64,000 nucleotides of DNA from Rhodothermales bacterium (lineage in GTDB: Bacteria > Bacteroidota > Rhodothermia > Rhodothermales > Bin80): positions 2,726,380 to 2,790,379 of the forward strand of contig OX638318.1 in the NCBI GenBank assembly GCA_951812585.1, read 5' to 3'. The notes below the pieces were generated by a model. The model saw only the letters and a program-made list of their open reading frames with translations. It had not been told where the DNA came from and made no database searches. Each line of letters begins with the position of its first letter. Positions within the stretch are counted from its first letter, which is position 1. A program made the translations under genes and the position numbers. Below, in pieces: positions 17,734-34,362 of the stretch.

Positions 17734-19494
17734 ATGGAAGACCATCACACTGCATCCCACCATGAGGGCCACAAGGTAGGATTCTGGCGCAAGTACTGGT
17801 TTTCGACCGACCACAAGGTCATCGGCATACAGTACGGGATCACAGCACTTTTCTTCCTGCTGTTCGGCTTCATCCTCATGCTGCTGATGCGTTGGCAGCT
17901 CGCTTCGCCGGGCATAGAGATTCCGCTTCTTGGTGCGCTCACCCCGGAGATGTACAACCAGTTCGGTGCCATGCATGGCACGATCATGGTGTTCATGGGC
18001 ATCGTGCCGCTGGCGGTGGGCGCCTTCGGCAACTATGTGGTGCCGCTCCAGATCGGCGCAGTGGATATGGCATTTCCGCGCTTGAACATGGCGAGCTACC
18101 ACTTCTTCTTCTGGGGCGGAGTTGTGATGATGGCCAGCTTCTTTGTGCCGCAGGGCGCGGCCAAAGCCGGCTGGACCTCGTATCCGCCGCTGGCCGACAT
18201 AGAGACGATGGGGCAGACGATGTGGCTATGGGGCATGGTGCTGCTCATCACCTCATCGCTGCTGGGTGCGATCAACTTCCTGACCACCATCATACAGCTC
18301 CGTACCGAGGGCATGACCTTCTTTCGGATGCCATTCTTTGTGTGGGCCCAGTTTATTACCGCCTTCCTGCTTCTTTTGGCGTTCCCGCCGCTGGAGGCCG
18401 CCGGCATTCTGCAGCTTGCGGATCGCCTGCTGGATACCAGCTTCTTCTTGCCTAGCGGGCTGGTGACCGCCGAGGGTCCCCTAGAAGTATCGGGCGGCGG
18501 CAGTCCGCTGCTGTGGCAGCATCTCTTCTGGTTCCTTGCGCACCCGGAGGTGTACGTGCTGGTTCTGCCGGCCATGGGCATTGTAGCCGAGATTGTAGCC
18601 AACAACACCCGCAAGCCACTATGGGGCTACCGTTTGATGGTGTATTCGCTGATCTTCCTGGGCTTCATGTCCTTCATCGTGTGGGCCCACCACATGTTCA
18701 TCACAGGCATGGGCACGGCCATCAGCGCTTTTTTCCAGGTGACGACGATGATCATCTCGATTCCGTCGGTGGTGATTCTCTCTGCGCTTTTCATCACGCT
18801 CTGGGGCGGATCCATCCGCTTTACGACACCGATGCTTTTTGCGCTAGGGTTCTTGCCGATGTTCGGCATAGGCGGGCTTACGGGCTTGCCGCTCGGACTT
18901 GCGCCAACGGATATCCCCCTGCATGACACCTACTACGTGATTGGCCACTTTCACTATGTGGTGGCGCCCGGCACCATCCTCGCGCTCTTTGCCGGCATCT
19001 ACTATTGGTTCCCGAAGATGACCGGGCGCACGATGAACGACACTTTGGGCAAGATTCACTTCTGGGGCACGATCATCTCCATGAATGGAATCTTCTTTCC
19101 GATGCTTATCCAGGGGATGGCGGGCGTGTCACGGCGGCTTTTTGATGGGGGACTGGCGTACAGCTTTTCGGAGCCGGTGCTCGAGTACAACGTCTTCATG
19201 TCCATTTCGGCGGCCGCGCTGTTTCTCTTCCAGATTCCATTTATCATCAACTTCTTCCAGAGCATCAGAGGAGGCCGGAAGGTAGAGAAGGCCAACCACT
19301 GGGATGCCACCACTCTGGATTGGTCAGCAACGCCCACGCCACCGGTGCCGCATGGCAATTTTGAAAGCGTACCGCGGGTGTACCGGGATCCTTACGAATA
19401 CAGCGTACCGGGCAGCGGCGTGCCCTTCTTGTCACAGGACACGGCGCCGCCGGCTGCGCCATCCGATCAGATTCTGGAGGAGGTTGAAGCGTAA
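17734..19494 (+). CDS. Cytochrome c oxidase subunit I, A1-type
   Basis: 586 residues with about 12 transmembrane helices. Haem-copper oxidase signatures are present: '[14 protein letters not shown]' (haem a His), '[15 protein letters not shown]' (CuB His cross-linked to Tyr and the Glu of the D-channel: HPEVY), '[11 protein letters not shown]' (two CuB His) and '[10 protein letters not shown]' (haem a3 and haem a His). Retention of Glu in HPEVY marks subfamily A1, in contrast to the A2 oxidase at 30971-32635. The enzyme reduces oxygen to water and pumps protons. The operon order is I-III-IV-two small genes-II, with subunit II last, which is uncommon. Confidence 0.97.
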
Positions 19495-19499
19495 GCGCC

Positions 19500-20144
19500 A
19501 TGGAATTGCAAATCCCCTACGAGGTTACGCCCCGGCGTGATACCGGCGTCAACAACGCTAAGCTGGGCATCTGGCTCTTTCTGGCATCCGAGGTCATGCT
19601 TTTTGGTGGGCTCTTCGCGGCCTACATCTTTTTACGCATGGGTGCAGACGCCTGGCCCGGGATGGAGACGTTCGATACTCATGAGATGGCCACGCGCGCC
19701 GATCAGATCCTCAGCGTGCCGCTGGCGACGCTCAACACGGTGATCCTGATCGCGTCCAGCGTCACCATGGTGCTCAGTTGGGCGTCGCTCAAGATGAACA
19801 ACTTCAAGGGTTTCAAGCTGCACATGGGCCTCACGATCCTGCTGGCGCTTGGATTCCTGGTGGTCAAGGCGTTTGAGTACGGCTCCAAGTTTGGCCACCA
19901 TGTCTACCCGGAAACCAACATCTTCCTGGCGATCTACTTCGTCCTGACGGGGCTCCATGCCATCCATGTCACAGGTGGCATCATCGTGAATGCGTACTTC
20001 TGGGGGCCGGGCACGAAGATGTGGCTGAATGGCAATGCGCACGACAAGGCGCACTTTACCAACCGGATCGAGGTTGCAGGCCTGTACTGGCACTTTGTGG
20101 ATCTGGTCTGGATATTCCTGTTTCCGATGATTTACCTGGTGTGA
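19500..20144 (+). CDS. Cytochrome c oxidase subunit III
   Basis: 214 residues, about five helices, beginning 5 bases after subunit I. Family landmarks are '[20 protein letters not shown]' near the N-terminus and '[17 protein letters not shown]' and '[19 protein letters not shown]' at the C-terminus. Subunit III stabilises subunit I and maintains the proton-uptake path. The length matches five-helix bacterial forms. The initiation codon ATG at 19500 is consistent with the operon spacing. Confidence 0.95.
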
Positions 20145-20145
20145 T

Positions 20146-20472
20146 ATGGCCGGAGAAATGACCATTGAGGAGGTCAAGAAGCACGTCCGCGTGTACCTCT
20201 ATGTATTTGGAGCTCTGTTGGCTTTGACGCTGGTCACCGTGGCGGTATCGCGTTTCGATGTGTCCATAGGGCCAGCGCTAGTAATCGCACTGGTCATTGC
20301 GCTCGTCAAGGGTGCTCTGGTGGCTATGTACTTCATGCATCTGATCAGCGAGAAGCAGGTCATCATGTGGGTATTGTTGTCGGCTGCGGCCTTTCTCCTC
20401 TGCATGTTTGCTCTGTTCATATCCGCGCTGGTGGATCAGGAGCAGGTCGCGCTGCTGATGCATGTCGCTTAA
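20146..20472 (+). CDS. Cytochrome c oxidase subunit IV (COX4/CyoD-like)
   Basis: 108 residues with three hydrophobic helices, the typical arrangement of the prokaryotic COX4 family: 'VYLYVFGALLALTLVTVAVS', 'ALVIALVIALVKGALVAMYF' and 'VLLSAAAFLLCMFALF'. The 'KGALVAMYFMHL' segment is the family signature. It assists assembly of subunits I and III. Starts one base after the subunit III stop and overlaps the next gene by 11 bases. Confidence 0.92.
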   Translation: MAGEMTIEEVKKHVRVYLYVFGALLALTLVTVAVSRFDVSIGPALVIALVIALVKGALVAMYFMHLISEKQVIMWVLLSAAAFLLCMFALFISALVDQEQVALLMHVA

Positions 20473-20668
20473 GACCTTTCATATCATCTTTATTGCGGTC
20501 TCCACGCTGACGGCGTTCTTCTTCGGCGTGTGGGCTGCGTATCGCGGCATCGTGGACCAGAGCGGAGTGCTGGCGGTTGGAGCGGTCTTGTCGTTCGCGG
20601 TCGGCGTAGGCCTCATCTTCTACGGCGTAAGCTTTGTCCGCAAACTCAAAAACGCGGGGATCTATTAG
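20462..20668 (+). CDS. Small two-helix membrane protein of the oxidase operon
   Basis: 68 residues with two helices ('FHIIFIAVSTLTAFFFGVWA' and 'AVLSFAVGVGLIFYGVSFV'). It overlaps the subunit IV gene by 11 bases, so translational coupling is likely. Small hydrophobic ORFs occur at this place in several Rhodothermota-like oxidase operons; a role as small accessory subunit or assembly factor is inferred. No named family recognised. Confidence 0.75.
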   Translation: MSLKTFHIIFIAVSTLTAFFFGVWAAYRGIVDQSGVLAVGAVLSFAVGVGLIFYGVSFVRKLKNAGIY

Positions 20669-20672
20669 CGGC

Positions 20673-20948
20673 ATGAAAGCACTACGGCGCGTCATTGTCC
20701 TGGTCTTGCTTCTTTTGTTGCCATCCGTTGCGCTTGCCTGCGAGCAGTGCTTGGGCACGGGGGGTGCCAACGGGCCCGTGATCAGGGCGCTGGTCTTCTC
20801 GATGGCGGCGCTGCTCTCCATTGTGGGTTTTGTGGGGGTGGGCATCGCCACATTCTTTATCAACACGGTGCGACGCAGCAGGAGCCTTGCGCCATCAGAC
20901 CTGGAAGTCACAGAGCAGGGCGAGCTGGCCATGCGGACTGCGGTTTAG
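20673..20948 (+). CDS. Small secreted/membrane protein of the oxidase operon
   Basis: 91 residues from the ATG at 20673, 4 bases after the preceding stop. A signal peptide ('VIVLVLLLLLPSVALA') is followed by 'CEQCLGTGGANG', a CxxC without His (so not a haem site), then one helix ('ALVFSMAALLSIVGFVGVGI') and a cytosolic tail. The exported CxxC just before the CuA subunit gene could serve copper handling or thiol chemistry; that is inference. Confidence 0.75.
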   Translation: MKALRRVIVLVLLLLLPSVALACEQCLGTGGANGPVIRALVFSMAALLSIVGFVGVGIATFFINTVRRSRSLAPSDLEVTEQGELAMRTAV

Positions 20949-20960
20949 AACGAGTGCACG

Positions 20961-21896
20961 ATGTTTGACCTAAGCAAATGGATGGGAATGCCGCTGGACG
21001 CATCTGGACACGGTGCGCCCATCGATGCGATGATGGGATGGGTTCACTGGCTCATGCTGGCGCTTTTTATCTTCTGGGCCCCCTTCTTTCTGTACACGTT
21101 GTGGCGTTTTCGCGCCAAGCGGCAGCGTGTGGCCAACTACCACGGCGTCAAGAGCAAGTGGTCTTCCTACGTAGAGGGTGCTGTGGTGGTCGCGGAGGCT
21201 ATTTTGCTGGTCGGGTTTGCCTTTCCGATCTGGGCCGAGATCAAGAACGACTTCCCGGACGAGGAGGAGTCCACGATCATCAATGTGGTAGCAGAGCAGT
21301 TTGCATGGAACGTCGTCTATCCGGGTGCGGATGGCGCGTTTGGGCGCACGACGCTGGCGAAGCCATTGGCGATTGATCCTGACGATCCCCGGGGGGAAGA
21401 CGACATTATTGTTCAGGACGAGCTCCACCTGCTCAAGGGCAAGCCCGTCATCATTGAGCTCACTTCTCGCGATGTCATTCACAGTTTCGGCCTCCCCAAC
21501 ATGCGTGTGAAGCAGGACGTAATCCCGGGGCTTGCCATTCCAGTCTGGTTTGTGCCGGAGATGTCCACGAAGGAATTCCACGCGGCGATGACGAAGATCC
21601 TGCCCGTCTCGGCCGATCAGGGTCGCCGCCGCCAGTACCCGCCGTACCGCTGGATTGCTATGCAGGATTATGCGGCAGCCGACGGAACAGTGCTAGCCGA
21701 AGCGGGGGCCCGTTTGTCCACGCGCATACTGGATCGCCTGTTCGAGGCAGGCATCACGGAGGTTGTTGCAGCGCCCGACATGGAGATCAGCTGCGCGCAG
21801 CTTTGCGGAGGTGGCCACTACAGCATGCGCGGCACGGTGATTGTGCACGAGACGCAGGAGGAGTTTGATGCAGCCTTGGCCCGCTGGGACTTCTAG
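20961..21896 (+). CDS. Cytochrome c oxidase subunit II with an inserted segment
   Basis: 311 residues: two helices (about 28-48 and 72-92), then the CuA cupredoxin domain. CuA ligands are His174 ('DVIHSF') and the loop C278-AQL-C282-GGG-H286-YS-M289; Gln replaces the usual Glu, which binds by its backbone. There is no CxxCH, so no fused cytochrome c. Between the strand 'GLAIPVWFVPEM' (about 190-201) and 'MEISCAQLC' (from 274) lies an extra segment of about 70 residues containing 'DGTVLAEAGARLSTRILDRL' and 'EAGITEVV', a pattern common in HD-GYP leaders and RNA polymerase beta loops. Normally the strands join directly. It is the last gene of its operon. Confidence 0.93.
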   Translation: MFDLSKWMGMPLDASGHGAPIDAMMGWVHWLMLALFIFWAPFFLYTLWRFRAKRQRVANYHGVKSKWSSYVEGAVVVAEAILLVGFAFPIWAEIKNDFPDEEESTIINVVAEQFAWNVVYPGADGAFGRTTLAKPLAIDPDDPRGEDDIIVQDELHLLKGKPVIIELTSRDVIHSFGLPNMRVKQDVIPGLAIPVWFVPEMSTKEFHAAMTKILPVSADQGRRRQYPPYRWIAMQDYAAADGTVLAEAGARLSTRILDRLFEAGITEVVAAPDMEISCAQLCGGGHYSMRGTVIVHETQEEFDAALARWDF

Positions 21897-22227: not shown

Positions 22228-23373
22228 CTACTCGAATAACACGAACGCTCCGTCCTGCATCCTTGCCACTACGGGGTCGTACAGGGCGTCGCCGTGCTCG
22301 TCAAACGAAAAGGAGCCGAAGACGGTGTCCAGATCACGCGTTCGTGCAAGTGCATTGCGGATTTCATCCGCCTCAAACGCTTCAATCTGCGCCAGTGCAT
22401 TTGCCAGCACATTCATGGCGACATAGCCGCGTGCTACGTAGTCGCTTGCCTCTTCACCGTGCTCATCGCGATAATTTCTCAGAAATGTCAAGCTGCGCGG
22501 GTGCGTTGAAGCGGCAAGCCAAACGTGAAAAGTCACGACACCCTCCGCGGCACCGGGTACCATGCGGTTTAGCTGCGCAGCATCGCTGATCGACAAGTAC
22601 GGCGCGATGAGCGGAATATCTGTGATGCCGGCAGCATGGGCTTGCATGAGCACGCCAATCCGGTCAGGCGACAATCCGCATACAAAAATGGCATCCACGC
22701 CAGCAGTATCCATAGCCGAGAGCGCCGCAGAGATGTCCGGTACGTCGCTGGACGACGGATCCCGCTCGTAGGAGATCTCCTCCACCACCGATACGTCTGG
22801 AAAGCGCGCCAGGGTGGCGATGACTTGGTCATAGCTGCTCTGCGAAAACGCGTCTGCCTCGTTGACGATAGTGCCCACGCGCGTATAATTCAGGTGTCGG
22901 TGGGATACTACGATCCCGCTAGGAATCACCCTTTCAACCGTCAGCAGCGACCTGAACAGGTACGGAGTGGCCGCACCCAGGCCGAGCGCGGCAGAGTTGG
23001 GACTAAGCGCCACCACGCCATGGTTGTCAATCGTGGAAGTGATCGCACGCGCAGCAGCAGAAGAAGTCGGTCCAAGGATCACAGGCACGTCATCCTCCTC
23101 AATCAGTCTGGCAAACCGGTGTAGACTTGTGTCCGGTATGCTCTTGTCGTCGTAGACCGTAAGCTCCAACTCCGCTTCGCCAAGCAGGGCGGAGTTGAGG
23201 ATTTCCTCCTGAGCCAGTTGTATCCCGGCTAGGATTTCCACGCCATTGGAAGTCTGGGGGCCTGTAAGTGACAGCACAACACCAACGTGATAGATCGTCG
23301 GGTCTTCCTCTATCGCATCGCATGAAGTAAGGCCAATGGCTAAGAGTACACCCAAAGTGAAACTATACCGCAT
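22228..23373 (-). CDS. LivJ-type substrate-binding lipoprotein (copy 1)
   Basis: 381 residues. Lipoprotein signal 'LAIGLTSCDA' (lipobox LTSC), then the type I periplasmic binding-protein fold: 'VGVVLSLTGPQTSNGVEIL', 'VILGPTSSAAARAITS', 'VVALSPNSAALGLG', 'RVGTIVNEADAFSQSSYDQV', 'AIFVCGLSPDRIGVLMQA' and the C-terminal 'DEIRNALARTRDLDTVFGSF'. Family members bind amino acids, amides or other small polar ligands for ABC importers or as sensors. It is the last of four tandem paralogues and carries the most divergent linker. No permease or ATPase gene is present in the window. Confidence 0.88.
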   Translation of the reverse strand: MRYSFTLGVLLAIGLTSCDAIEEDPTIYHVGVVLSLTGPQTSNGVEILAGIQLAQEEILNSALLGEAELELTVYDDKSIPDTSLHRFARLIEEDDVPVILGPTSSAAARAITSTIDNHGVVALSPNSAALGLGAATPYLFRSLLTVERVIPSGIVVSHRHLNYTRVGTIVNEADAFSQSSYDQVIATLARFPDVSVVEEISYERDPSSSDVPDISAALSAMDTAGVDAIFVCGLSPDRIGVLMQAHAAGITDIPLIAPYLSISDAAQLNRMVPGAAEGVVTFHVWLAASTHPRSLTFLRNYRDEHGEEASDYVARGYVAMNVLANALAQIEAFEADEIRNALARTRDLDTVFGSFSFDEHGDALYDPVVARMQDGAFVLFE

Positions 23374-23484
23374 GGTTCGCGTGGGTTAAGGCATGGATAG
23401 CGGTGCCGTAGTTCTGAAAGCACCGGCGCGCATGGAGTGTTTGGTCGCCACGGCCCATGCCTGGGCCAGTAATGGGTGGCGAGG

Positions 23485-24627
23485 TTACTGCTGCAAGACC
23501 ACGAACGCGTTGTCTCGTACCTGCGCCACAACAGGGTTGTACATCGCGTCGCCATTCCCGTCAAAGGAAAACGGGCCGTAGATCGTATCGAGATTCTTAA
23601 CAGCGGCCAACGCGCTGCGGATTGAAGCGGCTTCGTAGTTCTCTGCGTTTTCTAGCGCTTCTGCCAAGATATGGAAAGCCGCGTAGCCGCGGGCAGCGTA
23701 GTCGCTGGGTGCCTCTCCGTGGCGCGCGGTGTAGCTGTTCACAAACTCACGGCTCAGCGGCTCATCCGAGCTTTCCAGCCAAACCTGAAAGGTCACGGCT
23801 CCTTCCGCGGCTCCGGGCACTTCGGCATTGATGCGCTGCACATCATTGATGGCGAAAAGCGTAGCGATATACGGCGTATTCGTGATGCCCAGGATGTGCC
23901 CTTGTGTAAGGATGCCAAAATGGTCTTCCGGCAAGCCTGAAAGAAAGATTGCGTCAGGATCGGCATTCATCACCGCAGTCAGCTCGGTGGTAAGGTCGCC
24001 GATCTCCGTGCCAGGAGGCCGGGAATACGACTGTGCCGAGACGATGGTAATGTCCGGGTCAGCCTGCAGTACCTCCGTGATCTTGTCGTTGCTGCTCATG
24101 GAGAAAGTATCCCCGCTGTTGACGATGGTTGCGACCCGGCGGTAATTCAGATGCGCCTTGGAGACCTCAATGCCGACGGGGACCAGCTGATCTACCGTGA
24201 GCGAAGAGCGAAACAGCCAATCGCTTTTCGCACTGAGGCCCGTAGCCGATGAGGTCGGACTGAACGCCACAACCCCGGCACCATCCGCTATGGAAATGAT
24301 GGCGTCGGTTGCACTTGAAGTTATAGGGCCCAGAATGACGGGTGTACCGACGTCATTGATCAGCGTGTTATAAGCGGCTGTGCTGCCGTCCGTAGTGCTT
24401 TTATTGTCAAGGGAGGCGGAGGTGATGGTGTTACCCAACAGGCCGGAGTCGAGCACCTCGTCTAGAGCGAGCGCAATGCCCTTGCTTACTTCTTCACCGG
24501 CCTCGCTTATCGTGCCGGTGGCAGGCAGTACTATCCCTATTTTGAGCTCGTTGTCATCCGTACCCGAATCGCACCCTATAAGAATCAGGCATACGCATAG
24601 CCCTATAAAAAGAGATTTGCTACTCAT
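23485..24627 (-). CDS. LivJ-type substrate-binding lipoprotein (copy 2)
   Basis: 380 residues with lipobox 'LILIGC' at about 14-19. The same fold landmarks as its neighbours: 'IGIVLPATGTISEAGEEV', 'VILGPITSSATDAIIS', 'VVAFSPTSSATGLSAKSDW', 'RVATIVNSGDTFSMSS', 'AIFLSGLPEDHFGILTQG' and 'ALAAVKNLDTIYGPFSFDG'. It is closest in phrasing to copies 3 and 4, suggesting recent duplication. About 110 bases separate it from copy 1, and 174 from copy 3, so each copy may have its own promoter. Confidence 0.88.
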   Translation of the reverse strand: MSSKSLFIGLCVCLILIGCDSGTDDNELKIGIVLPATGTISEAGEEVSKGIALALDEVLDSGLLGNTITSASLDNKSTTDGSTAAYNTLINDVGTPVILGPITSSATDAIISIADGAGVVAFSPTSSATGLSAKSDWLFRSSLTVDQLVPVGIEVSKAHLNYRRVATIVNSGDTFSMSSNDKITEVLQADPDITIVSAQSYSRPPGTEIGDLTTELTAVMNADPDAIFLSGLPEDHFGILTQGHILGITNTPYIATLFAINDVQRINAEVPGAAEGAVTFQVWLESSDEPLSREFVNSYTARHGEAPSDYAARGYAAFHILAEALENAENYEAASIRSALAAVKNLDTIYGPFSFDGNGDAMYNPVVAQVRDNAFVVLQQ

Positions 24628-24801
24628 CGCTTCTCGTTGGTTAGAGTGTTAGGGTTGTCATTACCCGCAACCCTCAAAAGCCGTTCGCCCGTGTTAGTAC
24701 AGTTGACCACGGCCTACGTATATACCGGGCGTTGGTTCTCAGCAACGGCGTTCGGCAAGGGATTTCTAAAGGCTCATGTGTGCGGCGCCGACGTAGCTGC
24801 A

Positions 24802-25953
24802 TTAGTCCAACGGTACGATCTTGCCTCCTTCCACATGGGCAATGATCGGCGTGTACATGGCGTCGCCGACGCTGTTAAAGCTGAATCGTCCCACGATGGT
24901 ATCCAAGCTGCCGAAGTTCTCGAAGGCCGCCCGGATGGATGCGGCCTCGTAGTCTTCGGCGTGCTGCAGCGCAGATGCCAGCACTCGGGTTGCCAGGTAA
25001 CCAGCGGCTGCAAACTCTCCGGGGTCCGCTCCGTATTGACTGCGAAAGCGTGCGACGAAGTCCTGGCTTTTCTGGTGCGTTGAGGAGATCACCCACCGGG
25101 CGAATGTAACGACATCTTCAGCAGCTCCCTGCTGCTGGCTTTCGATGTATTGAAGCTCGGAGGCCGAGAATTCCGGTATGATGAACGGCATACCCGCAAT
25201 GTTCGCTTCGTGTGCCTGCAGCACCATTTGCTCGACATCCAGCGGCAAGCCAGACATGAACACCACATCTGGACCAGAGGCCTTAATGGCTGCAAACTGG
25301 ACTGACAAGTCTAAAGGCGGCGAGCCCGGCGGCCTGGAAAATGTCTGCTCATTCACTACCTCCACATCATCATAGGACGCCAGCTCGCGTTTTACAAGGA
25401 AATGGCTGCTGCTCGAAAACGTGTCGGCATCGTTGTAGATCAACGCTGCACGAGAATAGCCCAAGCGCATTTTGGTGTGTTCGACACCAGGCGGCACCAG
25501 TTGGTCCACAGCCAGCGCTGCCCGAAACAGCCAGGGACTCTTGGCGCTCAGACCTTCGGCCGAAGACGTAGGGCTGAGCGCAACGACGCCCGCTTCATGG
25601 GTGGCGAGGGTAATGCCTTCCGTGGCGCTGGACGAAGCTGGTCCCAGAATGATTGGAACACCGGCCTGGTCAATCAGCTTCTGGTAGGCGTCTATGGCTC
25701 CTTCAACGGTACTCTTGCTGTCTTCCAGGATGACGAGGAGCTGCGTATTTCCCAAAAGCCGTTCGCTGTTGATGCCTGCGATGGCCAGTGCGGCCCCTTT
25801 TCTGACTTCTTCCCCGGGCCGTGCCGCCGTTCCGGTAATCGGCAAGACTATGCCAATCGTCAGCTCCTCTTCGTTCGCCGTGAAGTCACACGATGCAAAC
25901 ATCCAGCAGGCCAAAAGGCCCAAGGCCGCGTGCTTGAACAGTATTTTCGGCAT
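24802..25953 (-). CDS. LivJ-type substrate-binding lipoprotein (copy 3)
   Basis: 383 residues from the ATG at 25953; the longer frame to 26082 would overlap the upstream paralogue and lacks signal character. The signal 'LGLLACWMFASC' precedes 'DFTANEEELTIGIVLPITG'. Fold landmarks: 'VPIILGPASSSATEGIT', 'VVALSPTSSAEGLSAKSPW', 'RAALIYNDADTFSSSSHF', 'VVFMSGLPLDVEQMVLQA' and 'AFENFGSLDTIVGRFSFNS'. The ligand-pocket loop (SPTSSAxGLSAKS) is shared with copy 2 almost exactly. Ligand unknown. Confidence 0.88.
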   Translation of the reverse strand: MPKILFKHAALGLLACWMFASCDFTANEEELTIGIVLPITGTAARPGEEVRKGAALAIAGINSERLLGNTQLLVILEDSKSTVEGAIDAYQKLIDQAGVPIILGPASSSATEGITLATHEAGVVALSPTSSAEGLSAKSPWLFRAALAVDQLVPPGVEHTKMRLGYSRAALIYNDADTFSSSSHFLVKRELASYDDVEVVNEQTFSRPPGSPPLDLSVQFAAIKASGPDVVFMSGLPLDVEQMVLQAHEANIAGMPFIIPEFSASELQYIESQQQGAAEDVVTFARWVISSTHQKSQDFVARFRSQYGADPGEFAAAGYLATRVLASALQHAEDYEAASIRAAFENFGSLDTIVGRFSFNSVGDAMYTPIIAHVEGGKIVPLD

Positions 25954-26005
25954 CAGTTCGGCAGCTCTTGGATGGACAATCCGCTGTGTTAACAGGGATG
26001 GGCCC

Positions 26006-27148
26006 TTACTGCACGGCCGCCAGTGCGTCGCCGACATACTGCACGACGATCGGATCGTAGATCGCATCGCCATCTGCGTCATAGGAAAACGGCCCCAGCA
26101 CCGTTTCTAGTGCGCTGGTTGCGGCCAGTGCACTGCGCACGGATGGTACCGCAAAGTCTTCCGCTTTTGCCATTGCTTTCGCCAGGATGTTCAGCGTCGC
26201 GTAGCACTGTGCGGCGATTTCGCCGGGCTCTTCTCCATACCGTTGATGATAGGCGCTGACAAACGCCTGGCTGCGTGCATTATTGCTGGAAGCGAGCCAG
26301 ATGGTGGTAGACAGCACGTTATCGGCGGCACCGGGTACCTCGGCATTGATCTTACGCGCCTCATCAATCTGAAATGCCGTCTGATAGATGGGCGTGTCTG
26401 TGCTGCCCAGTGCATGCAGTCCGATCAGTATGGCATGGTGGTCCTCCGGGAGGCCTGAGCTGATGATTATGTCGGGTGATGCATCCACGATGCGCATAAG
26501 CTGCGCTGTCAGATCGTAGTCAGCGGCTTCATCCGTGGGGTCGCCCTGGTAGGACTCTTCGCTAACGAGTGTTACCTCCTCGTATCGCGACAGCTCGTTC
26601 ACCACTGACGTATGGCTGCTTAGCGAGAATGTATCGTTCTCGTTGTAGATCGCAGCGACCCTGGTGAATCCCAGGCGCGCCTTTGCTACCCGAAGTCCGG
26701 TGGGTATCGCATTTTCTACTGATCCTACCGTGCGGAAGAGGTTCGTGCTCTGCGCTGCGAGCCCTGCGGCCATGGACGTAGGACTCATGGCGATGATGTT
26801 CGCCTCATTGATCATGGGAATGATCGCTTGCGTGCTGGCTGACGTAGCGGGGCCAATGACAAACTGGATGCGGTGCTCGTCCATCAGCCACTGAAGCGCC
26901 GCTTGTGTACCTGCTGCTGTGAGCGTATCATCGGCCACAACCAGGGACAGGTGCATGTCGCCGAGTTGTCCGGAGGCATTGATTTCATCTGCGGCCAGCT
27001 GCAACGCATTTTGGGCGTGCTGCGCTTCGCTGGACATCGGCCCTGTCATCGGCAGGATAGTGCCAATCAGAATCTCGTTGGACTCACCGCCAGGGGCGCA
27101 GGCAGCGACGAGGCACATAAAAGCTATAGGCAGTCGTACGTTCAGCAT
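26006..27148 (-). CDS. LivJ-type substrate-binding lipoprotein (copy 4)
   Basis: 380 residues from the ATG at 27148; the TTG-initiated extension to 27217 adds a Cys-rich non-signal leader. The signal 'LPIAFMCLVAACAPGG' ends in a lipobox. Landmarks: 'ILIGTILPMTGPMSSEAQHA', 'IQFVIGPATSASTQAI', 'IIAMSPTSMAAGLAAQS', 'RVAAIYNENDTFSLSSHT', 'IIISSGLPEDHHAILIG' and 'SALAATSALETVLGPFSYD'. This is the first gene of the tandem array and lies 52 bases upstream of copy 3. A palindrome at 27261-27282 is located 110 bases before its start. Confidence 0.88.
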   Translation of the reverse strand: MLNVRLPIAFMCLVAACAPGGESNEILIGTILPMTGPMSSEAQHAQNALQLAADEINASGQLGDMHLSLVVADDTLTAAGTQAALQWLMDEHRIQFVIGPATSASTQAIIPMINEANIIAMSPTSMAAGLAAQSTNLFRTVGSVENAIPTGLRVAKARLGFTRVAAIYNENDTFSLSSHTSVVNELSRYEEVTLVSEESYQGDPTDEAADYDLTAQLMRIVDASPDIIISSGLPEDHHAILIGLHALGSTDTPIYQTAFQIDEARKINAEVPGAADNVLSTTIWLASSNNARSQAFVSAYHQRYGEEPGEIAAQCYATLNILAKAMAKAEDFAVPSVRSALAATSALETVLGPFSYDADGDAIYDPIVVQYVGDALAAVQ

Positions 27149-27260
27149 AGCGATGCAGCAGCAGTGTTGTAGCAGCCTTGGCGGCAAAAGTAAAGCAGGA
27201 ATCCTCACGCCGAACAAGCGCGATCAGCCCGCGGCCTCCCGCTACCTATTCTGGACATCC

Positions 27261-27282
27261 CTCAAGCGGCGCGCCGCTTGAG
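27261..27282. promoter_or_regulatory. Perfect 22-bp palindrome upstream of the binding-protein array
   Basis: CTCAAGCGGC followed by GCGCCGCTTGAG reads identically on both strands. It lies about 113 bases upstream of the first gene of the four-gene array and 445 bases after the end of the TonB-like gene. The symmetry fits a dimeric repressor operator; without a T-run it is less likely to be a terminator. Confidence 0.4.
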
Positions 27283-27727
27283 CACCACCACCGTTATACG
27301 GCCAGGATACCTGCTGGTTTTGTGGGCAAAGCACGGAATTCGCATCGCTTCTCGTAGAAGGTAGGGGCAGCGGTGGGTTCTCAAAATGGTGAAGTTGGGC
27401 TACGGGGTGGGGCGCGCCACCGAACTAGCCTGGCCAGCCAGCATGGCAACAATTTCGGAGACCCCCAACTACCGGTCGTGCGCGGCCGTCTGCCAACTGC
27501 CACCGAGTGCGCGCTCGGCAATTGTACCGCTGCGCTGCTGGTCATCATCAGGCCAGTGCGCCACTGTAACTAGTGCAACTGGCAGGGCGCGGCGGGACAT
27601 GTCACAAGAACGGAGAACGGGTTCTGGAACCAGTCGGTGAAAGTTTACATGGTGATGCTCAACGTCTTCTGCCCGAAGCGAAGAGACCCGCCCGCTCTTG
27701 ACCATGGCGCGGTCCCTGGTTCAGGCA
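27283..27727. other. Intergenic region without a recognised gene
   Basis: 445 bases upstream of the array's first promoter region and downstream of the TonB-like gene. Short open frames exist on both strands, but none has a plausible start, length or composition. No repeats were noted except the flanking palindrome. Confidence 0.5.
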
Positions 27728-28549
27728 CTATCTGAGCCTAAACAGGATTGGGATAGTCATACTTACTCTTACCGCTACACCATCCTTTTGTCCAGGAATA
27801 AATTTTGCCGAGCGTACTACGCGCAGGGCTTCCTCGTCTAAACCTCCGCCAATGCCCCGCGCAATCTTCGCATTCACGACATTGCCGTGCTCGTCTACTA
27901 CGAATGTGACGTACACCTGTCCCTGAATCCCAGCCCTTCTAGCATCTTTCGGGTAAATGATCTGGCGAAGCAGTGCACGGGGGCCACCAACTAGTACTGG
28001 CATCTCGTCCAATTCGAGAAACGCCGGCGTGTCCGCTTCTCCAGCCACACTATCAGACGGTTCTGTTGGCTCACTGGACTCGCTGAGCTTGAACAAAATC
28101 GGCAGAGTCATCCGGACCTTGACTGCTTTTCCATCCTGACGGCCAGGTGTGAACTTGGCCTGTCGCACTACGCGCAGGACTTCTTCATCAAGACCTGCCT
28201 CGAGCCCGCGAAATACTCTGGCATCGGCCACGCCGCCCTGCTCATCAACGACAATGTCCAAAAACACTGTTCCTTCAACGCCAGCCGCCCATGCCGTGGC
28301 AGGAATCTTGACCTGGCTTGCCAGCGCGCCCAGGCCACCGACAGGCTGAGGCATTTCTTCCACGGCCACATAGACTAGCGAGTCCCCTTCATGCGTGCTG
28401 AGCACCTGGGCTACGGCGATTCCCAAGCTATTACAACCTGTTTCAAGGGCCAGGATACAGGTCAGGGCGGCGGCGACCGACAACACGAAATACGGGCGCA
28501 GTTTTGCATTCGAGGCGCCAGCGAGCTCGGGGTCTGTGCGCAAAGTCAT
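27728..28549 (-). CDS. TonB-like energy transducer with two C-terminal domains
   Basis: About 273 residues using the ATG at 28549. One N-terminal hydrophobic segment ('YFVLSVAAALTCILALETGC') is followed by two TonB_C-type repeats: the first about 90-160 ('VYVAVEEMPQPVGGLGALAS', 'EEVLRVVRQAKFTPGRQDGK') and the second about 185-270 ('DEMPVLVGGPRALLRQIIYP', 'EEALRVVRSAKFIPGQKDGV'). Each keeps the P-x-(Y/A)-P and 'FxPG..G..V.V.M..PI.F' signature. The duplication is unusual; typical Bacteroidota TonB proteins carry one such domain. Partners may be the TonB receptors at 1.1 and 43.9 kb, but no ExbB/ExbD is in the window. Confidence 0.85.
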   Translation of the reverse strand: MTLRTDPELAGASNAKLRPYFVLSVAAALTCILALETGCNSLGIAVAQVLSTHEGDSLVYVAVEEMPQPVGGLGALASQVKIPATAWAAGVEGTVFLDIVVDEQGGVADARVFRGLEAGLDEEVLRVVRQAKFTPGRQDGKAVKVRMTLPILFKLSESSEPTEPSDSVAGEADTPAFLELDEMPVLVGGPRALLRQIIYPKDARRAGIQGQVYVTFVVDEHGNVVNAKIARGIGGGLDEEALRVVRSAKFIPGQKDGVAVRVSMTIPILFRLR

Positions 28550-28579
28550 GAAGCTACTGCTCAGGTTGGTTAGAGGCAT

Positions 28580-29622: not shown

Positions 29623-30309
29623 CTATTGCGCTTCTAAAAAGGTTACCAGCGATTCGATCTCGGCGTCGGAGGTGGTGCTGTAGAAGTTGAGCGCGTTGAG
29701 GGTGAGAAGCATCAACTGCGGCGGAAAGCCCTCCGTGATCGTTGCATCGGGATCGAGGATAGACTCAGTGAGCGCTTCACGCGTGCGCGACTGCCCGATG
29801 CCCTGGAAGGTCGGGCCCGGAAGCACGCTGCCATCCAGAGAGTGGCACGTCTTGCAGAACTGATCATAGAGTGCCTCGCCCGAGCGGGCTGGCGCCTCTT
29901 GCACCTCCGGCATCTCCTGCTCGGCCAGTGCCACCGCGTCAGGCTCCTCGGCAGAGGCTGACGCTTCATGCACTGCAGCCGGCAGCTCGTACGGGATGTG
30001 CCCAGCAGGCTGAATGCCAAGCGCGCCGCGCAGCGCGGTATCAGACAAAGTGAGCGACAGGAAAACCACGGCGAAAGCGATGCCCAAAAAGGCCACGACC
30101 ATGTTCACAGGGTTGTCATACTTCAAGGCCATGAATATCGCCGCCACCGCGACTGCCTTGGTGCCCGCAATGGCAAGCGCCAACGGCACGTTCAGCGGCC
30201 CCAGATCCAACTGCGCCGTGATCACCGTGATGATCGTCAGCGCAACCAGCACGGCGAAGACCGTGGCCAAGGTTCGGATCGGTACGATATGGTGGGATCC
30301 GTGCGCCAT
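29623..30309 (-). CDS. caa3 oxidase subunit IV fused to a cytochrome c domain
   Basis: 228 residues. The N-terminal 95 residues form a three-helix COX4-like module ('TLATVFAVLVALTIITVITA', 'LAIAGTKAVAVAAIFMALKY', 'VVAFLGIAFAVVFLSLTL'). An Ala/Glu-rich linker (about 110-145) leads to a class I cytochrome c domain with haem motif CKTCH ('DQFCKTCHSLDGS'). Ordinary subunit IV proteins lack this domain; the caa3 cytochrome normally sits on subunit II, and here subunit II (32639-33571) has one as well. The operon would therefore supply two tethered cytochromes c. It ends the long minus-strand respiratory unit. Confidence 0.9.
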   Translation of the reverse strand: MAHGSHHIVPIRTLATVFAVLVALTIITVITAQLDLGPLNVPLALAIAGTKAVAVAAIFMALKYDNPVNMVVAFLGIAFAVVFLSLTLSDTALRGALGIQPAGHIPYELPAAVHEASASAEEPDAVALAEQEMPEVQEAPARSGEALYDQFCKTCHSLDGSVLPGPTFQGIGQSRTREALTESILDPDATITEGFPPQLMLLTLNALNFYSTTSDAEIESLVTFLEAQ

Positions 30310-30315
30310 GCGTGG

Positions 30316-30963
30316 CTAAATCAGATACAACAGCGGGAAAAGGAAAATCCAGATGATGTCCACCAGATGCCAGTACAGGCCGGTAAGCTCGATGGGCGTG
30401 TAGTACGCTGCGGAAAAATGACCACGAATCGCTCGCGTGACTATCCATGCAATCACGCCCATGCCGACCAGCACATGGATCCCGTGAATGCCGGTCATCA
30501 CGAAGTAGATACTGAAAAACTGCGGCGCATACGGGGTATAGTACGCGGCATAGTCGCCGTGCGGAGCAAAGCCCGCGCCCGGGAAGATGCCATGCGACCA
30601 CTTGCCGGTGTACTCGAAATATTTGACCACCATGAAGGCCAAGGCGCAGAGGAGTGTCAAGAGCAGCAAGACGACAACCTTTTCCTTCTCGTTCCTCTGG
30701 ATGAAGTGCACGGACAGGGCGACAGTGAAGCTGGACGCCAGTAGCACCAACGTGTTCAAAGCGCCTAGCCGCCAGTCCAAAAGCTCGCTGCTCAGTTCAA
30801 ACACCTCGGGATACCATACGCGATAGACCGCGTAGGCCACGAACATGCCGCTGAAGAGCAGCACTTCAGTGACCAGGAAAAGCCACATGCCCATCTTCGC
30901 CGCGTCAAACTGCTGCGCAGACGAAACGAAGTAGTGCTTTAAGGTCGTGGACGTTTCCGCCAT
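30316..30963 (-). CDS. ctaE: caa3 oxidase subunit III
   Basis: 215 residues, five helices. Landmarks: 'AAKMGMWLFLVTEVLLFSGM' at the N-terminus, 'GIHGIHVLVGMGVIAWIV' in the middle and 'YWHLVDIIWIFLFPLLYLI' at the C-terminus, all typical of CtaE. It starts 7 bases after subunit I. It supports the core subunit and proton uptake. The gene symbol follows ctaCDEF usage for caa3 clusters. Confidence 0.95.
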   Translation of the reverse strand: MAETSTTLKHYFVSSAQQFDAAKMGMWLFLVTEVLLFSGMFVAYAVYRVWYPEVFELSSELLDWRLGALNTLVLLASSFTVALSVHFIQRNEKEKVVVLLLLTLLCALAFMVVKYFEYTGKWSHGIFPGAGFAPHGDYAAYYTPYAPQFFSIYFVMTGIHGIHVLVGMGVIAWIVTRAIRGHFSAAYYTPIELTGLYWHLVDIIWIFLFPLLYLI

Positions 30964-30970
30964 GAACGGC

Positions 30971-32635
30971 CTACGTGTTGTCTTGAGACTCAGATGATGC
31001 TGAGGCTGCTGCGCCTAGTACATCATCAGCCAGATGGAAGTCGTATGGCCCGCGCGTAACCAGCGGCACCTTCTCAAAGTTGTGCGGATCCGGAATGGGG
31101 CCCGTGTGGGTCCACTCCAGCGTCACGGCACCCCACGGATTTGCGGGGGCCTTCTTGCCCCTGACCAGCGAATGCACCGCATAGGCCAAGATCATAAACA
31201 GCCCCGCAGCCAGGACAAAGGAGCCAACCGACGAGGCCAGGTTGTAGGCGGCGAACTCCGGGTACTGATCCAGAAGCCCGGCATAGTCATGGTACCGGCG
31301 CGGCATGCCCCGACTGCCCATCACAAACTGAGTAAAAAAAGTCAGATTGAAGCCGACAAATACCAGCACCGCCGCGATGCGGCCAGCCGTCTCGCTGTAC
31401 ATGCGCCCAGTGATCTTGGGCCACCAGTAGTGGAGTCCTCCAATAAGCCCGATCAGCGCGCCACCCATCATGACGTAGTGGAAGTGCGCCACAATGAAAT
31501 ACGTGTCATGCAGATGCACATCCACCGCCAGGACGCCGACCATGATACCGGTAAGGCCCCCAATGGTGAACAGAAACAGGAACATGAGGGCGTACAGCAT
31601 CGGGGTCTTCAGTGACACCGAACCCTTGTACATCGTAGCCACCCAGTTGAAGACCTTGATGCCGGTTGGGATGCCGATCAGGAAGGTCAGCATGGAGAAA
31701 ATGATCGAGCTGAGGGCAGACTGACCCGCAACGAACATGTGGTGCCCCCACACCAGAAAGCCCAGAAAAGCAATGGCTACCGACGACAACGCAATAAACG
31801 TGTAGCCGGATACCTGCTGTCGTGAGAAGGTCCCCATCAGGTCGCTGATGATGCCCATGGCGGGCAAGATCATGATGTACACGGCAGGGTGGCTGTAGAA
31901 CCAGAAGAAATGCTGGAAGAGCACGGGATCGCCGCCAAGCGCCGGATCAAAAATGCCGATCTGAAGGAGCCGCTCAAGGAAGAGCAGTACCATCGTGATG
32001 CCGATCACGGGCGTCGCCAACACCTGCACGATCGCAGTGGCATAGATCGCCCACACAAACAGCGGCAGCCGATTCCAGGCCATGCCCGGTGCCCGCATCT
32101 TGTGCACGGTGACAATGAAGTTGAGCCCCGTGAAAATGGACGCAAAACCCGCAATGAAGACCGCCGAAGTAAGCCACAGCACGCTGCTGGTGCCTTCCGC
32201 AGAATACGGCGTATAGAAGGTCCAGCCCGTGTCCACCTGCCCGATCACCAGCCAGCCGCTCAACGCCATCAGTGCCCCAAGCATGAAGATGTACCAGCTA
32301 AACAGGTTGAGCCTGGGAAACGCTACATCCTTTGCACCAATCTGTATGGGTAGCACAAAGTTGCCCAAGATACCCGGGATCGCGGGGATGATCACCAGAA
32401 ACACCATCACTACGCCATGGAGCGTGAAAGCCTGGTTGTAGGCATCCTGCCCCATGATCGTCTCCCCGGGAGCCGCCAATTCCGTGCGCACCAGAAGCGC
32501 GAAGATGCCGCCCAGCAAAAAGAACGTTGCCACGGCAATGGCATACAGGATGCCAATGCGCTTGTGGTCCGTGGTGAGCAGCCACGAGCGCACTCCGGTG
32601 CTGGCACTTAAGTAGTTCTGCCCTGCTGTGCTCAT
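30971..32635 (-). CDS. ctaD: caa3 oxidase subunit I, A2-type (YSHPAVY)
   Basis: 554 residues, about 12 helices. The sequence reads '[17 protein letters not shown]': the D-channel Glu of HPEVY is Ala, and Tyr-Ser precedes the His, as in the A2 subfamily defined for Rhodothermus marinus caa3. Other metal ligands are intact: 'WGHHMFVAG' (CuB) and '[10 protein letters not shown]' (haem a3/a). '[15 protein letters not shown]' holds the first haem a ligand. Proton transfer is believed to use the Tyr-Ser pair instead of Glu. Within its operon it follows subunit II by 3 bases and precedes subunit III. Confidence 0.97.
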
Positions 32636-32638
32636 GAA

Positions 32639-33571
32639 CTAATGCTCCTTGATGAAAGCGACCAGCGCGTCGATCTCGTCCGGCTCCAGCAAGGCGTACG
32701 TTCCGGGCATCAGCGCCATGTAGCCCTCCACAATTTCCGTGGCAGGCTGTGTGATGGCCTCGCGTAGGTAGTTGTCATCGGCAATCCTCCGCGTCCCGTC
32801 GGCAAATACGCGTTCCGAGCCCGCCAGCCCCGCAAAGGAGGGCCCGGTGCCAGGCGCACCATCGAGCGAATGGCAGGCGAGGCAGCCCTGCTGCGTGTAC
32901 AGCATTTCGCCGCGCTCCGCAGGCGATGCGTCTGCGGCAAGGAGCCCCTCCTGCAGCCAGGCCTCAAAGTCATCTTGGGACTGCACGATCACCGATGACA
33001 GCATCATGGAGTGCTGCTGTCCGCAGTACTCGGTGCACATGAGCAGAAAGGTATCCTGCCGCGTGGCTTCAAACCATGCATAGGTGTATCGGCCCGGCAC
33101 CACATCCATCTTGGTGCGAAAAGCAGGCACGTACAGGCTATGCAGCACATCGGCGCTGCTCATGGTGAGCTTGACCGGCCGACCCACCGGCACGTGCAGC
33201 GCCGAAGCGCGCACGCCGTTAGGATATTCAAAGAGCCAGCTCCACTTCTGTGCGCGCACGGTGATTTCCATCGCATTCGGTGGCGCTACATTCATGTGGA
33301 TAAAGACGCGAAAGCCCCAGACAAAAACGATGGCCACCAGAATGGTTGGCACCAGGATCCAGGAAGTCTCCACGATCTTGTTTTCCTTGACGGGCTTCGG
33401 CCGGTCGGCGGCGCTTCGGCGACGATACCGCCATGCAAAAAGCACCATGGTCGCCATCACGCCCGCAAAAAGGATCACGCTGACAATGAGGATGAAGTAG
33501 AACAGTGCATCCACATCCCCGGCATAGGTGGACGCAGCATCCGGGAGCCAAAAGGCCTGCCTCTGTTCCAT
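32639..33571 (-). CDS. ctaC: caa3 oxidase subunit II with cytochrome c domain
   Basis: 310 residues from the ATG at 33571, which overlaps the SCO stop by one base (TGATG). Two helices ('VDALFYFILIVSVILFAGVM' and 'ILVPTILVAIVFVWGFRVFI') are followed by the CuA domain with His in 'ADVLHSLYVP' and the loop C-TEY-C-GQQ-H-SM-M. A C-terminal cytochrome c domain with CLACH ('QQGCLACHSLDGAPGTG') gives the caa3 architecture. It receives electrons from ActE or a soluble carrier. The upstream extension to 33604 lies inside SCO and is not used. Confidence 0.95.
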   Translation of the reverse strand: MEQRQAFWLPDAASTYAGDVDALFYFILIVSVILFAGVMATMVLFAWRYRRRSAADRPKPVKENKIVETSWILVPTILVAIVFVWGFRVFIHMNVAPPNAMEITVRAQKWSWLFEYPNGVRASALHVPVGRPVKLTMSSADVLHSLYVPAFRTKMDVVPGRYTYAWFEATRQDTFLLMCTEYCGQQHSMMLSSVIVQSQDDFEAWLQEGLLAADASPAERGEMLYTQQGCLACHSLDGAPGTGPSFAGLAGSERVFADGTRRIADDNYLREAITQPATEIVEGYMALMPGTYALLEPDEIDALVAFIKEH

Positions 33572-34362
33572 CACGCAGCCGGGCGGATTAGCTCGCGCCG
33601 CCACAAGACAGCCAGCAGACTCATCAGCGCAATCGCCGCCATGATGCCGCCGAGGCGCATGGTCCGACGGGCAGTGAGCACGTAAGAATTAGCGGTGGGA
33701 TCGTACTGAAAGCAGAAGAGGAATGCCCGGTCAAGCAGCGATCCAATGCTGCCCTCAGAGGCCTCCACCAAGGCCGCGCGCACGTCGCGACCCTGCGGTG
33801 CCACGTCAGCCAGGTACCGGGTTACAACGCCATCCTCAGACAAGAAGATGAGCGCAGCCGGGTGCGCGTATTCGCCTTGCTCCTCCACCCATGAGTAGCC
33901 AAAGCCGATGCTTTCCGCCAGCGCCCTGATGGCTGATTCCTCGCCGGTCAAAAAATGCCATTCCGCCTCGGGGCGTCCCAAACGGGCCAGGTGTCGTTCA
34001 CGTTGCTTGGCAGCCAAAGACGGCGTCTCATCGGGGCTGATGGATACAGTCACCAAGTCAAATTCCACGCCGGGCGTCCACGGCACAGCCTCCAGCGCCT
34101 GCGTCAGACCGTCCAGCAGCACGCTACACAGCATGGGGCAGGTGTGATACACAAACGTGAGCAGCGTAGGCCTTTCCAAAAGGGTGCCCATTGGTACCAC
34201 CGTACTGTCGCTGCGAAGGAACACCAGATCCGGCGGGATCTCGGCACCTAGCTTAGGGGTCAGCCCTACGCCACTGTATGCACGTGCCACATGGGCGGCG
34301 CTTTGCGCCTGCGCCGTGCCAGGCAATAGCAATAGCAGCAGTGTGAACCTTGTTGCATGCAT
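33571..34362 (-). CDS. SCO1/SenC-type copper chaperone
   Basis: 263 residues. Signal peptide ('LLLLLLPGTAQAQ'), thioredoxin-like fold with the copper-binding C-PML-C ('VYHTCPMLCSVLLDG') and a His downstream ('GEYAHPAALIFLS'), and a C-terminal helix ('IMAAIALMSLLAVLW') instead of the usual N-terminal anchor. SCO proteins help load CuA in subunit II, encoded immediately downstream. The gene overlaps that start by one base and abuts the small membrane gene upstream. Confidence 0.92.
   Translation of the reverse strand: MHATRFTLLLLLLPGTAQAQSAAHVARAYSGVGLTPKLGAEIPPDLVFLRSDSTVVPMGTLLERPTLLTFVYHTCPMLCSVLLDGLTQALEAVPWTPGVEFDLVTVSISPDETPSLAAKQRERHLARLGRPEAEWHFLTGEESAIRALAESIGFGYSWVEEQGEYAHPAALIFLSEDGVVTRYLADVAPQGRDVRAALVEASEGSIGSLLDRAFLFCFQYDPTANSYVLTARRTMRLGGIMAAIALMSLLAVLWRRELIRPAA

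Follow-up and report, generated by a model that had tools for sequence, protein, structure and literature searches.

What do solute-binding lipoproteins do in a genome where no Liv importer is found for them? The question is raised by the single-contig genome of a Rhodothermales bacterium (3,198,349 bases, 95.7% complete), in which a stretch of 64,000 nucleotides (C1:2726380-2790379, hereafter the window) carries four LivJ-type lipoprotein genes in tandem at 22228-27148 on the reverse strand. A sequence-only reading of the window had offered two kinds of answer: different ligands for a distant ATP-binding cassette (ABC) importer, or a role as ligand sensors or scavengers. Our own answer, to which we give about an even chance, is that the array encodes membrane-anchored receptors for non-amino carboxylates, which mostly lack the usual amino-acid clamp and are uncoupled from Liv ABC import. 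Judged by sequence, the basis for this is the domain, the predicted fold, the lipobox, a genome search that found no Liv importer, membership of a distinct clade and the loss of an acid in copies 1, 2 and 4.

The array, its clade and its binding pocket

All four genes are intact, encode products of 380-383 amino acids, each with a lipobox, and match the Peripla_BP_6 domain (PF13458, E 2.7e-44 to 2.3e-49). The description of four tandem LivJ-type lipoproteins therefore stands, as does the pocket loop SPTSSAxGLSAKS common to the copies, and no frame is broken, which speaks against three of the four being pseudogenes. The genes are separated by 111, 174 and 52 bp, and the only other PF13458 match in the genome is a partial one in a 468-aa protein. 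Pairwise protein identity ranges from 34.6 to 46.4%; copies 2 and 3 had been called the most alike, which is half right, as they (46.4%) are tied with copies 1 and 2 (46.3%). Copy 1 (P0001) has a probable orthologue in a relative (G001, 55% identity) and copy 2 (P0002) an orthologue in the same genome (68%), and the branches of copies 3 and 4 (P0003 and P0004) are more than 1.0 long, so that recent tandem amplification in the window was rejected; P0004, on its long branch, has no close orthologue among the rows compared. The ratio of nonsynonymous to synonymous substitution rates was finite in 10 of the 12 orthologue pairs tried, at 0.05-0.42, with the two window pairs saturated at synonymous sites. 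In-frame starts lie further upstream of P0003 (ATG at 26082; the lipobox agrees with the start at 25953) and of P0004 (TTG at 27217).

A profile model built from the four window proteins (A1) separates 104 non-redundant domains into 82 that score at least 227.9 bits and 22 that score at most 122.3; with 25 domains added the low group reaches 146.7 bits and the high group stays above 227. The low group includes Poribacteria LivJ genes near PF02653 permease genes and E. coli LivJ and LivK (67 and 60 bits). In a quick maximum-likelihood tree of the 104 rows the 82 form one clade, with an approximate likelihood ratio (SH-aLRT) support of 99 and a stem of 0.88. As far as their sequences tell, the array copies belong to a distinct cross-phylum clade, well apart from permease-linked LivJ, and searches of the open-licence literature found no description of it. 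In a second, redundancy-reduced tree of 107 rows (L035 and L119 were dropped, and of the new loci L139 and L144; neither tree is bootstrapped), the sister of the clade is a set of four Rhodothermia orphans on a branch 2.2 long, and clade and sister together are supported at 99. Rhodothermales and Dadabacteria group together with supports of 99 and 100 in the two trees. Latescibacterota fusions to superoxide dismutase (SOD) are nested within Poribacteria in both, on starred branches, and so is a Bacteroidota genome (G551) in the second. The sister-group genes (L146, L147, L148, L150) come from other Rhodothermia families and have no liv homologues in the stretches taken.

The pocket was compared between 94 clade domains and 35 others, in the numbering of mature E. 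coli LivJ. Ser79, on what we take to be the carboxylate side, is present in all 94 clade domains and in 34 of the others. A tryptophan at the LivJ 250 column is likewise found throughout the clade, compared with four of the 35 others, and those four are the sister group. Thr102 is kept in 4 of 94 against 25 of 35, and Tyr150 in 20 (Phe in 68) against 29 of 35. The acid at 225-227 is missing in 78 clade domains and present in 16, whereas 27 of the 35 others have it, the sister group being also without it; in a first alignment the counts were 13 of 82 and 20 of 22. P0001, P0002 and P0004 have no acid at E226. Between the copies, columns 18, 77, 102, 227 and 276 vary, and 79, 101, 103, 150 and 202 are the same in all four. 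Variation at several pocket-side columns next to a constant carboxylate-side serine fits the earlier idea of different ligands and a scavenging or sensing role.

An AlphaFold2 model of P0002 (predicted local distance difference test 93.8) matches 3td9 with a Z-score of 45.9 and a root-mean-square deviation of 1.8 over 342 aligned residues, followed by 4gnr (Z 43.9). Compared with LivJ and LivK (E. coli livJ/livK; 3td9, 4gnr), the array shares the two-lobed predicted fold, the Peripla_BP_6 domain and the carboxylate-side serine, but no LivHMGF was found in its genome, most of its clade lacks the amino-group acid, and the clade is a separate one. Of what marks the LivJ/LivK class, the fold and domain are thus present, the LivH/LivM/LivG/LivF partners were not found, and three of the four copies have no amino-group acid. 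P0002, the one copy scanned, scores 66.1 bits against a cut-off of 477 on the LivJ/LivK family NF011933 and 47.6 against 492.75 on UrtA (TIGR03407).

The closest solved sequence by profile is 4obb (E 4.7e-54), a HAAT-family protein of Anabaena variabilis (4obb wild type, 4nv3 mutant), the wild type of which likewise has no acid in the loop. The array matches it at 186.7 bits only, and its annotation is that of a protein of an amino acid/amide ABC transporter. The same loop reads GGN in 4obb and GGD in 4nqr/4nv3, and the PDB titles pair 4obb with a 3-methyl-2-oxo acid and the N280D mutant 4nv3 with valine. The 4obb protein is presumably Ava_0465. Because the Ava_0465 structures are listed as unpublished in an excerpt of PMC8786288 (4NV3 is among them, 4OBB is not), this ligand switch is drawn from the PDB titles and the sequences.

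The search for an importer

That the window contains no LivHMGF genes holds, and it extends to the whole genome. The only permeases that a genome search recovered are two PF02653 genes, the nearest ~118 kb from the array, and no permease operon therefore lies just outside the window. Next to one of them are an ABC ATPase and a Peripla_BP_4 binding protein of the sugar type; the second has a xylose-isomerase-like protein and a two-domain ABC ATPase for neighbours. From this company we read both as sugar-type. The LivG tail PF12399 is absent from the genome by profile search; among 14 control genomes PF02653 was positive in 12 and PF12399 in 8.

The family of the host (f1) includes 15 clade-positive genomes, its own among them (G000-G003, G005-G015), and six of these, 95-99% complete and with their receptors kept, have no PF02653 match over the cut-off: G012 and G014 have none at all, and the single match in each of G006, G008, G010 and G013 falls short of the cut-off and sits in the position of COX4. 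A decayed LivH/LivM upstream of the clade gene was considered for these four and rejected as COX4. Three COX4 proteins from relatives themselves match PF02653 at E 2e-5 to 1.6e-3, and the weak match overlaps a COX4-like frame in G006, G010 and G013; for G008, where an intact COX4 frame was not found, the identity is by position. The remaining nine genomes have two PF02653 genes each over the cut-off, the neighbours of which were viewed in G000 (both) and G007 (one). Outside the family, PF02653 has no match in a Dadabacteria genome (G101). Measured start to start, 23 clade genes from five genomes with long contigs lie at least 89.8 kb from PF02653 genes, compared with 0.96-1.25 kb for eight LivJ controls from Poribacteria. 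The window array thus falls into the class of orphan solute-binding proteins, that is, solute-binding lipoproteins without a linked membrane import component. Since no Liv component is found in the genome, neither a Liv-type permease nor a LivG tail, and six of the 15 family genomes have no PF02653 over the cut-off, the distant ABC importer of the sequence-only reading is unsupported, and a distant Liv importer is unlikely.

Gene neighbourhood, carriers and known systems

Table 1. Features of the array region, in positions of the window.
Feature	Position	Strand	Basis
LivJ-like lipoprotein copy 1 (P0001)	22228..23373	-	PF13458 E 2.7e-44; predicted mature N-terminus CDAIEEDP
LivJ-like lipoprotein copy 2 (P0002)	23485..24627	-	PF13458 E 2.3e-46; predicted mature N-terminus CDSGTDDNE
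LivJ-like lipoprotein copy 3 (P0003)	24802..25953	-	PF13458 E 2.3e-49
LivJ-like lipoprotein copy 4 (P0004)	26006..27148	-	PF13458 E 1.2e-46; predicted mature N-terminus CAPGGESNE
579-bp stretch between TonB_C gene and copy 4	27149..27727	.	no gene assigned, no Rfam match at gathering score
Protein with two TonB_C matches, between cox operon and array	27728..28579	-	PF03544 E 2.2e-40, two stretches
COX4 + cytochrome c, caa3-type oxidase	29623-30309	-	Pfam
COX3, caa3-type oxidase	30316-30963	-	Pfam
COX1, caa3-type oxidase	30971-32635	-	Pfam
COX2 + cytochrome c, caa3-type oxidase	32639-33604	-	Pfam

The array is flanked by two separate cytochrome c oxidase sets in opposite orientation (17734-21896, forward, and 29623-33604, reverse). 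The TonB_C protein has no Pfam match beyond its two TonB_C stretches, no Rfam match reaches the gathering score anywhere in the window, and a promoter and terminator scan gave nine promoter-like sites against a shuffle mean of 3.4 and nine terminator-like sites against 6.7.

Homologues of COX1, COX2 and COX3 lie within six genes of a clade gene in 12 of the 15 family genomes (14 loci, two duplicates). In 11 relatives the clade gene is downstream of a homologous caa3 operon on the same strand, with a gap from COX4 of 22-330 bp in ten of them (260 bp in L075, 22 bp in L088); no COX4 frame was found in L076. The link was not seen for G002, G003 and G007 in the stretches taken, one G003 copy lying at a contig end. 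In G012 and G014 two copies from different subclades stand beside cox, other genomes retaining one or the other, and a 94-aa fragment adjoins a clade copy in G015, which suggests that the cox-linked genes are an old array with losses. Broken or fragmentary copies in relatives (G002:C206:32130-32976; L088 5926-6210; L090 1713-1997) are signs of gene birth and loss. In G007, a stretch divergent from one clade gene (L085 274-6386) holds an aldehyde dehydrogenase, an ABC ATPase, a PF02653 permease, a Peripla_BP_4 protein and a thiamine-pyrophosphate enzyme, perhaps for inositol catabolism.

Dadabacteria have a different order: carboxyltransferase, biotin carboxylase, biotin carrier, one to three clade genes and an SBP_bac_5/OppA-like gene (L098, L151, L152, L153), with the clade genes on the same strand as the genes on either side in all four genomes opened. 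These identities are by Pfam or NCBIfam, except that the biotin carboxylase of L153 is taken from length and order; in L098 a CoaE gene precedes the set. On mmdA, those carboxyltransferases that were scanned reach 834-841 bits, short of its cut-off, and we infer them to belong to propionyl-CoA carboxylase. Near a clade gene in seven Poribacteria loci (L048, L050, L053, L054, L055, L131, L135) there recur a more divergent gene of Peripla_BP_6 type and a conserved gene for a lipoprotein-like product of ~375 aa.

Among 99 relatives a signal above 200 bits is confined to the 15 family genomes; the family genome G004 is negative and the best score outside the family is 108.7. The same 15 are positive among 244 genomes of the class, where the next best reaches 174.5 bits with a 34-row model (A2). 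In 395 Bacteroidota genomes, scores above 440 bits come from nine family genomes and G551; six more genomes score 203-224, and a second gene of G551 scores 204. A livH homologue lies within ~1.5 kb downstream in L137 (the second G551 gene), L138, L139, L142 and L143, and livH/livM homologues ~2 kb away in L141, where the gene caller missed the binding-protein frame; L140 has no liv homologue within the 8 kb taken. In G551, then, a Liv operon stands in one place and a clade member in another, the latter with no liv homologues in the 14 kb taken. The clade is found in 20 of 64 Latescibacterota, in 11 of 57 Dadabacteria and in 67 of 84 Poribacteria genomes (best E <1e-127); the Poribacteria figures, with 17 genomes lacking it, are our own count, and the split resembles that into Entoporibacteria and Pelagiporibacteria in an excerpt of PMC8546597.

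When named species genomes were scanned with two patterns, 19 loci emerged. For three p16x33 bins the style of the name and the accession series fit a sponge origin, bin80 and PCPOR4 are presumably also from sponges, and Plut_88872 is probably, by its name, from the coral Porites lutea. Six loci carry the prefix jk18x, four of them sharing the prefix only; jk18x7 bins are metagenome-assembled genomes of the sponge Ircinia cf. reteplana, according to an extract of PMC9531527. One locus carries 277c, a Petrosia ficiformis sample in PMC8941161 (Table 1 as excerpted), and CAR3 and RHO2 match sponges of PMC8163846 by name. A host is traceable for all but four of the 19; where it is, the carriers would seem to come mostly from sponges and in one case from coral, which suggests a restriction of the clade to sponge bacteria.

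Binding proteins without a partner occur elsewhere: the Bug proteins of Bordetella are of the TctC type, from other organisms and of another fold class than the array. They and other orphan solute-binding proteins likewise have no known membrane component (excerpts of PMC11452294 and PMC11113362). A high copy number of a LivK-type protein is described for sponge Thaumarchaeota in part of PMC6697440, but Liv ATPases and permeases are reported there as well. Portions of two further papers have liv genes enriched in several Ircinia metagenomes (PMC9531527) and LivK second by protein number in an Aplysina metaproteome (PMC6081418, Table 2). Counts of this kind speak for the import of amino acids by sponge symbionts. 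If some of the annotated LivK/LivJ belong to the present clade, neither a Liv importer nor the usual amino-acid binding may be needed, and the uptake counts would need revision. The clade also makes it possible to test whether a family common to several phyla is linked to symbiosis.

Proposed function and its rivals

If the array encodes carboxylate receptors, they would close on small carboxylates and hold the carboxylate end through the Ser79 equivalent, with the alpha-amino clamp gone or changed. With the serine kept and the clamp lost or altered, 2-oxo or other non-amino carboxylates would be the likelier ligands, and different copies may take different ligand side chains. The receptors would catch and concentrate such compounds and pass them to a non-Liv carrier, and they may be expressed alongside energy metabolism, with cytochrome oxidase in Rhodothermales and an acyl-CoA carboxylase operon in Dadabacteria. 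We consider doubtful a wider claim, that of a sponge-holobiont family of 2-oxo-acid or carboxylate receptors, passed across symbiont phyla, tandem-expanded, importer-free, expressed with respiration or acyl-CoA metabolism and a hallmark of the sponge niche.

Several observations weigh against the receptor proposal. The roles of the LivJ residues (Ser79 on the carboxylate side, E226 holding the amino group) and the pocket columns are assumed by us. P0003, alone among the array copies, has a Glu at or one column from E226, depending on the alignment, and it and the 15 other acid-bearing domains may bind amino acids still. PMC8786288, in excerpt, places Ava_0465 under amino acids/amide. In the second tree the 80 clade rows are monophyletic at 87, a drop caused by the Rhodothermia orphans, which attach as its sister group by a long branch. 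G007, G009 and G011 each have one clade copy ~3.6 kb from a PF02653 permease, and an unrelated permease could be shared by the receptors; in G007 the permease locus comes with a Peripla_BP_4 protein and an ATPase of its own, and the clade copy is divergent from it. The cox link is loosest in the window itself, where 2.47 kb and the TonB_C gene intervene, and its conservation may reflect shared descent. No partner is conserved across phyla among the 30 commonest neighbour clusters, except for one ABC-ATPase-like cluster at two Latescibacterota loci and one Rhodothermales locus; Dadabacteria had one locus in this comparison.

Of the alternatives to carboxylate receptors, the one that survives best, though we think it unlikely, is that the loaded lipoproteins contact a sensor kinase or other regulator and so report host or holobiont metabolites. 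The membrane anchor bears on this. A lipobox is recognised in 74 of 77 clade frames, and Asp stands at +2 in 26 of the 27 Rhodothermales members that have one, against none of 15 other lipoprotein-like frames from Rhodothermales stretches, some of which may not be lipoproteins. In other phyla +2 is Asp in 21, Glu in 13 and Gly in 11 of 47 clade frames, compared with Asp in 4 and Glu in 5 of 26 background frames, other binding proteins included. In E. coli, Asp at +2 retains a lipoprotein in the inner membrane; by this rule the Rhodothermales members would be retained there, which would favour an inner-membrane partner. In an extract of PMC11452294, moreover, signal transduction is listed among the functions of such proteins and put forward for two orphan receptors of Bordetella. 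Against a sensor, the chemoreceptor domain PF00015 is found in none of the 22 clade genomes tested (7 of 14 controls are positive), so that chemotaxis through methyl-accepting chemotaxis proteins was rejected for these genomes. A ligand regulator of the AmiC type has no export signal, whereas all four window copies have a lipobox. Seven long receptor proteins scanned contain no kinase domain, and no kinase was recognised beside clade genes, histidine kinases not having been searched for. Three Pseudomonas binding proteins, two of them orphan, also failed to activate the two kinases tested in the excerpted part of PMC11113362.

Slightly less probable again is that the array copies bind amino acids in the ordinary way and rely on an importer that belongs to a different class or escaped the search. 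The two best structural matches of the predicted fold, 3td9 and 4gnr, are annotated as amino-acid binders, and the Glu of P0003, the permease near single copies in three relatives and a genome completeness short of 100% all leave room for it. However, searches that succeed in most (PF02653) or over half (PF12399) of the controls recover no Liv component here, six nearly complete relatives have no PF02653 over the cut-off, and 78 of the 94 clade domains lack the acid.

The least probable of the three is that the proteins belong to the surface or matrix of a symbiotic lifestyle, binding or sequestering host compounds or serving as structure, with neither transport nor sensing. Three proteins (L100, L103, L105) join the receptor domain to a weak Big_1-like stretch, below the Pfam cut-off, and to a C-terminal Cu/Zn SOD (PF00080, E 1e-36 to 1e-38); Omp85/POTRA genes adjoin the fusions in L100 and L105 (Latescibacterota), and L103 has a homologue. 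The Rhodothermales members have 0.35 acids per residue at +2 to +8, against 0.07 in the 15 background frames, and in other Bacteroidota an acid-rich N-terminus is a surface-export signal. These N-termini could be such a signal instead of one for inner-membrane retention, but the rule comes from other Bacteroidota and Asp at +2 points the opposite way; binding also seems to be still under selection, as every one of the 94 domains retains the cleft-side serine.

Direct copper binding, considered because cox and Cu/Zn SOD are both copper enzymes, was set aside, since none of the domain columns that are conserved to 93% or more within the clade is a His, Cys or Met. Arrays and fusions recur elsewhere in the clade, with eight (L095) and five (L106) tandem copies on Poribacteria contigs and in-frame double domains in Poribacteria (L107, L108, L113) and Latescibacterota (L099, L101). 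A 945-aa WD40-repeat protein (L095 1314-4151) is encoded two genes from the eight-copy array, and a 1082-aa Latescibacterota frame (L102 478-3726) has, besides the receptor domain, a Ser/Gly-rich tail and a weak match to Peptidase_S55 of the SpoIVB type.

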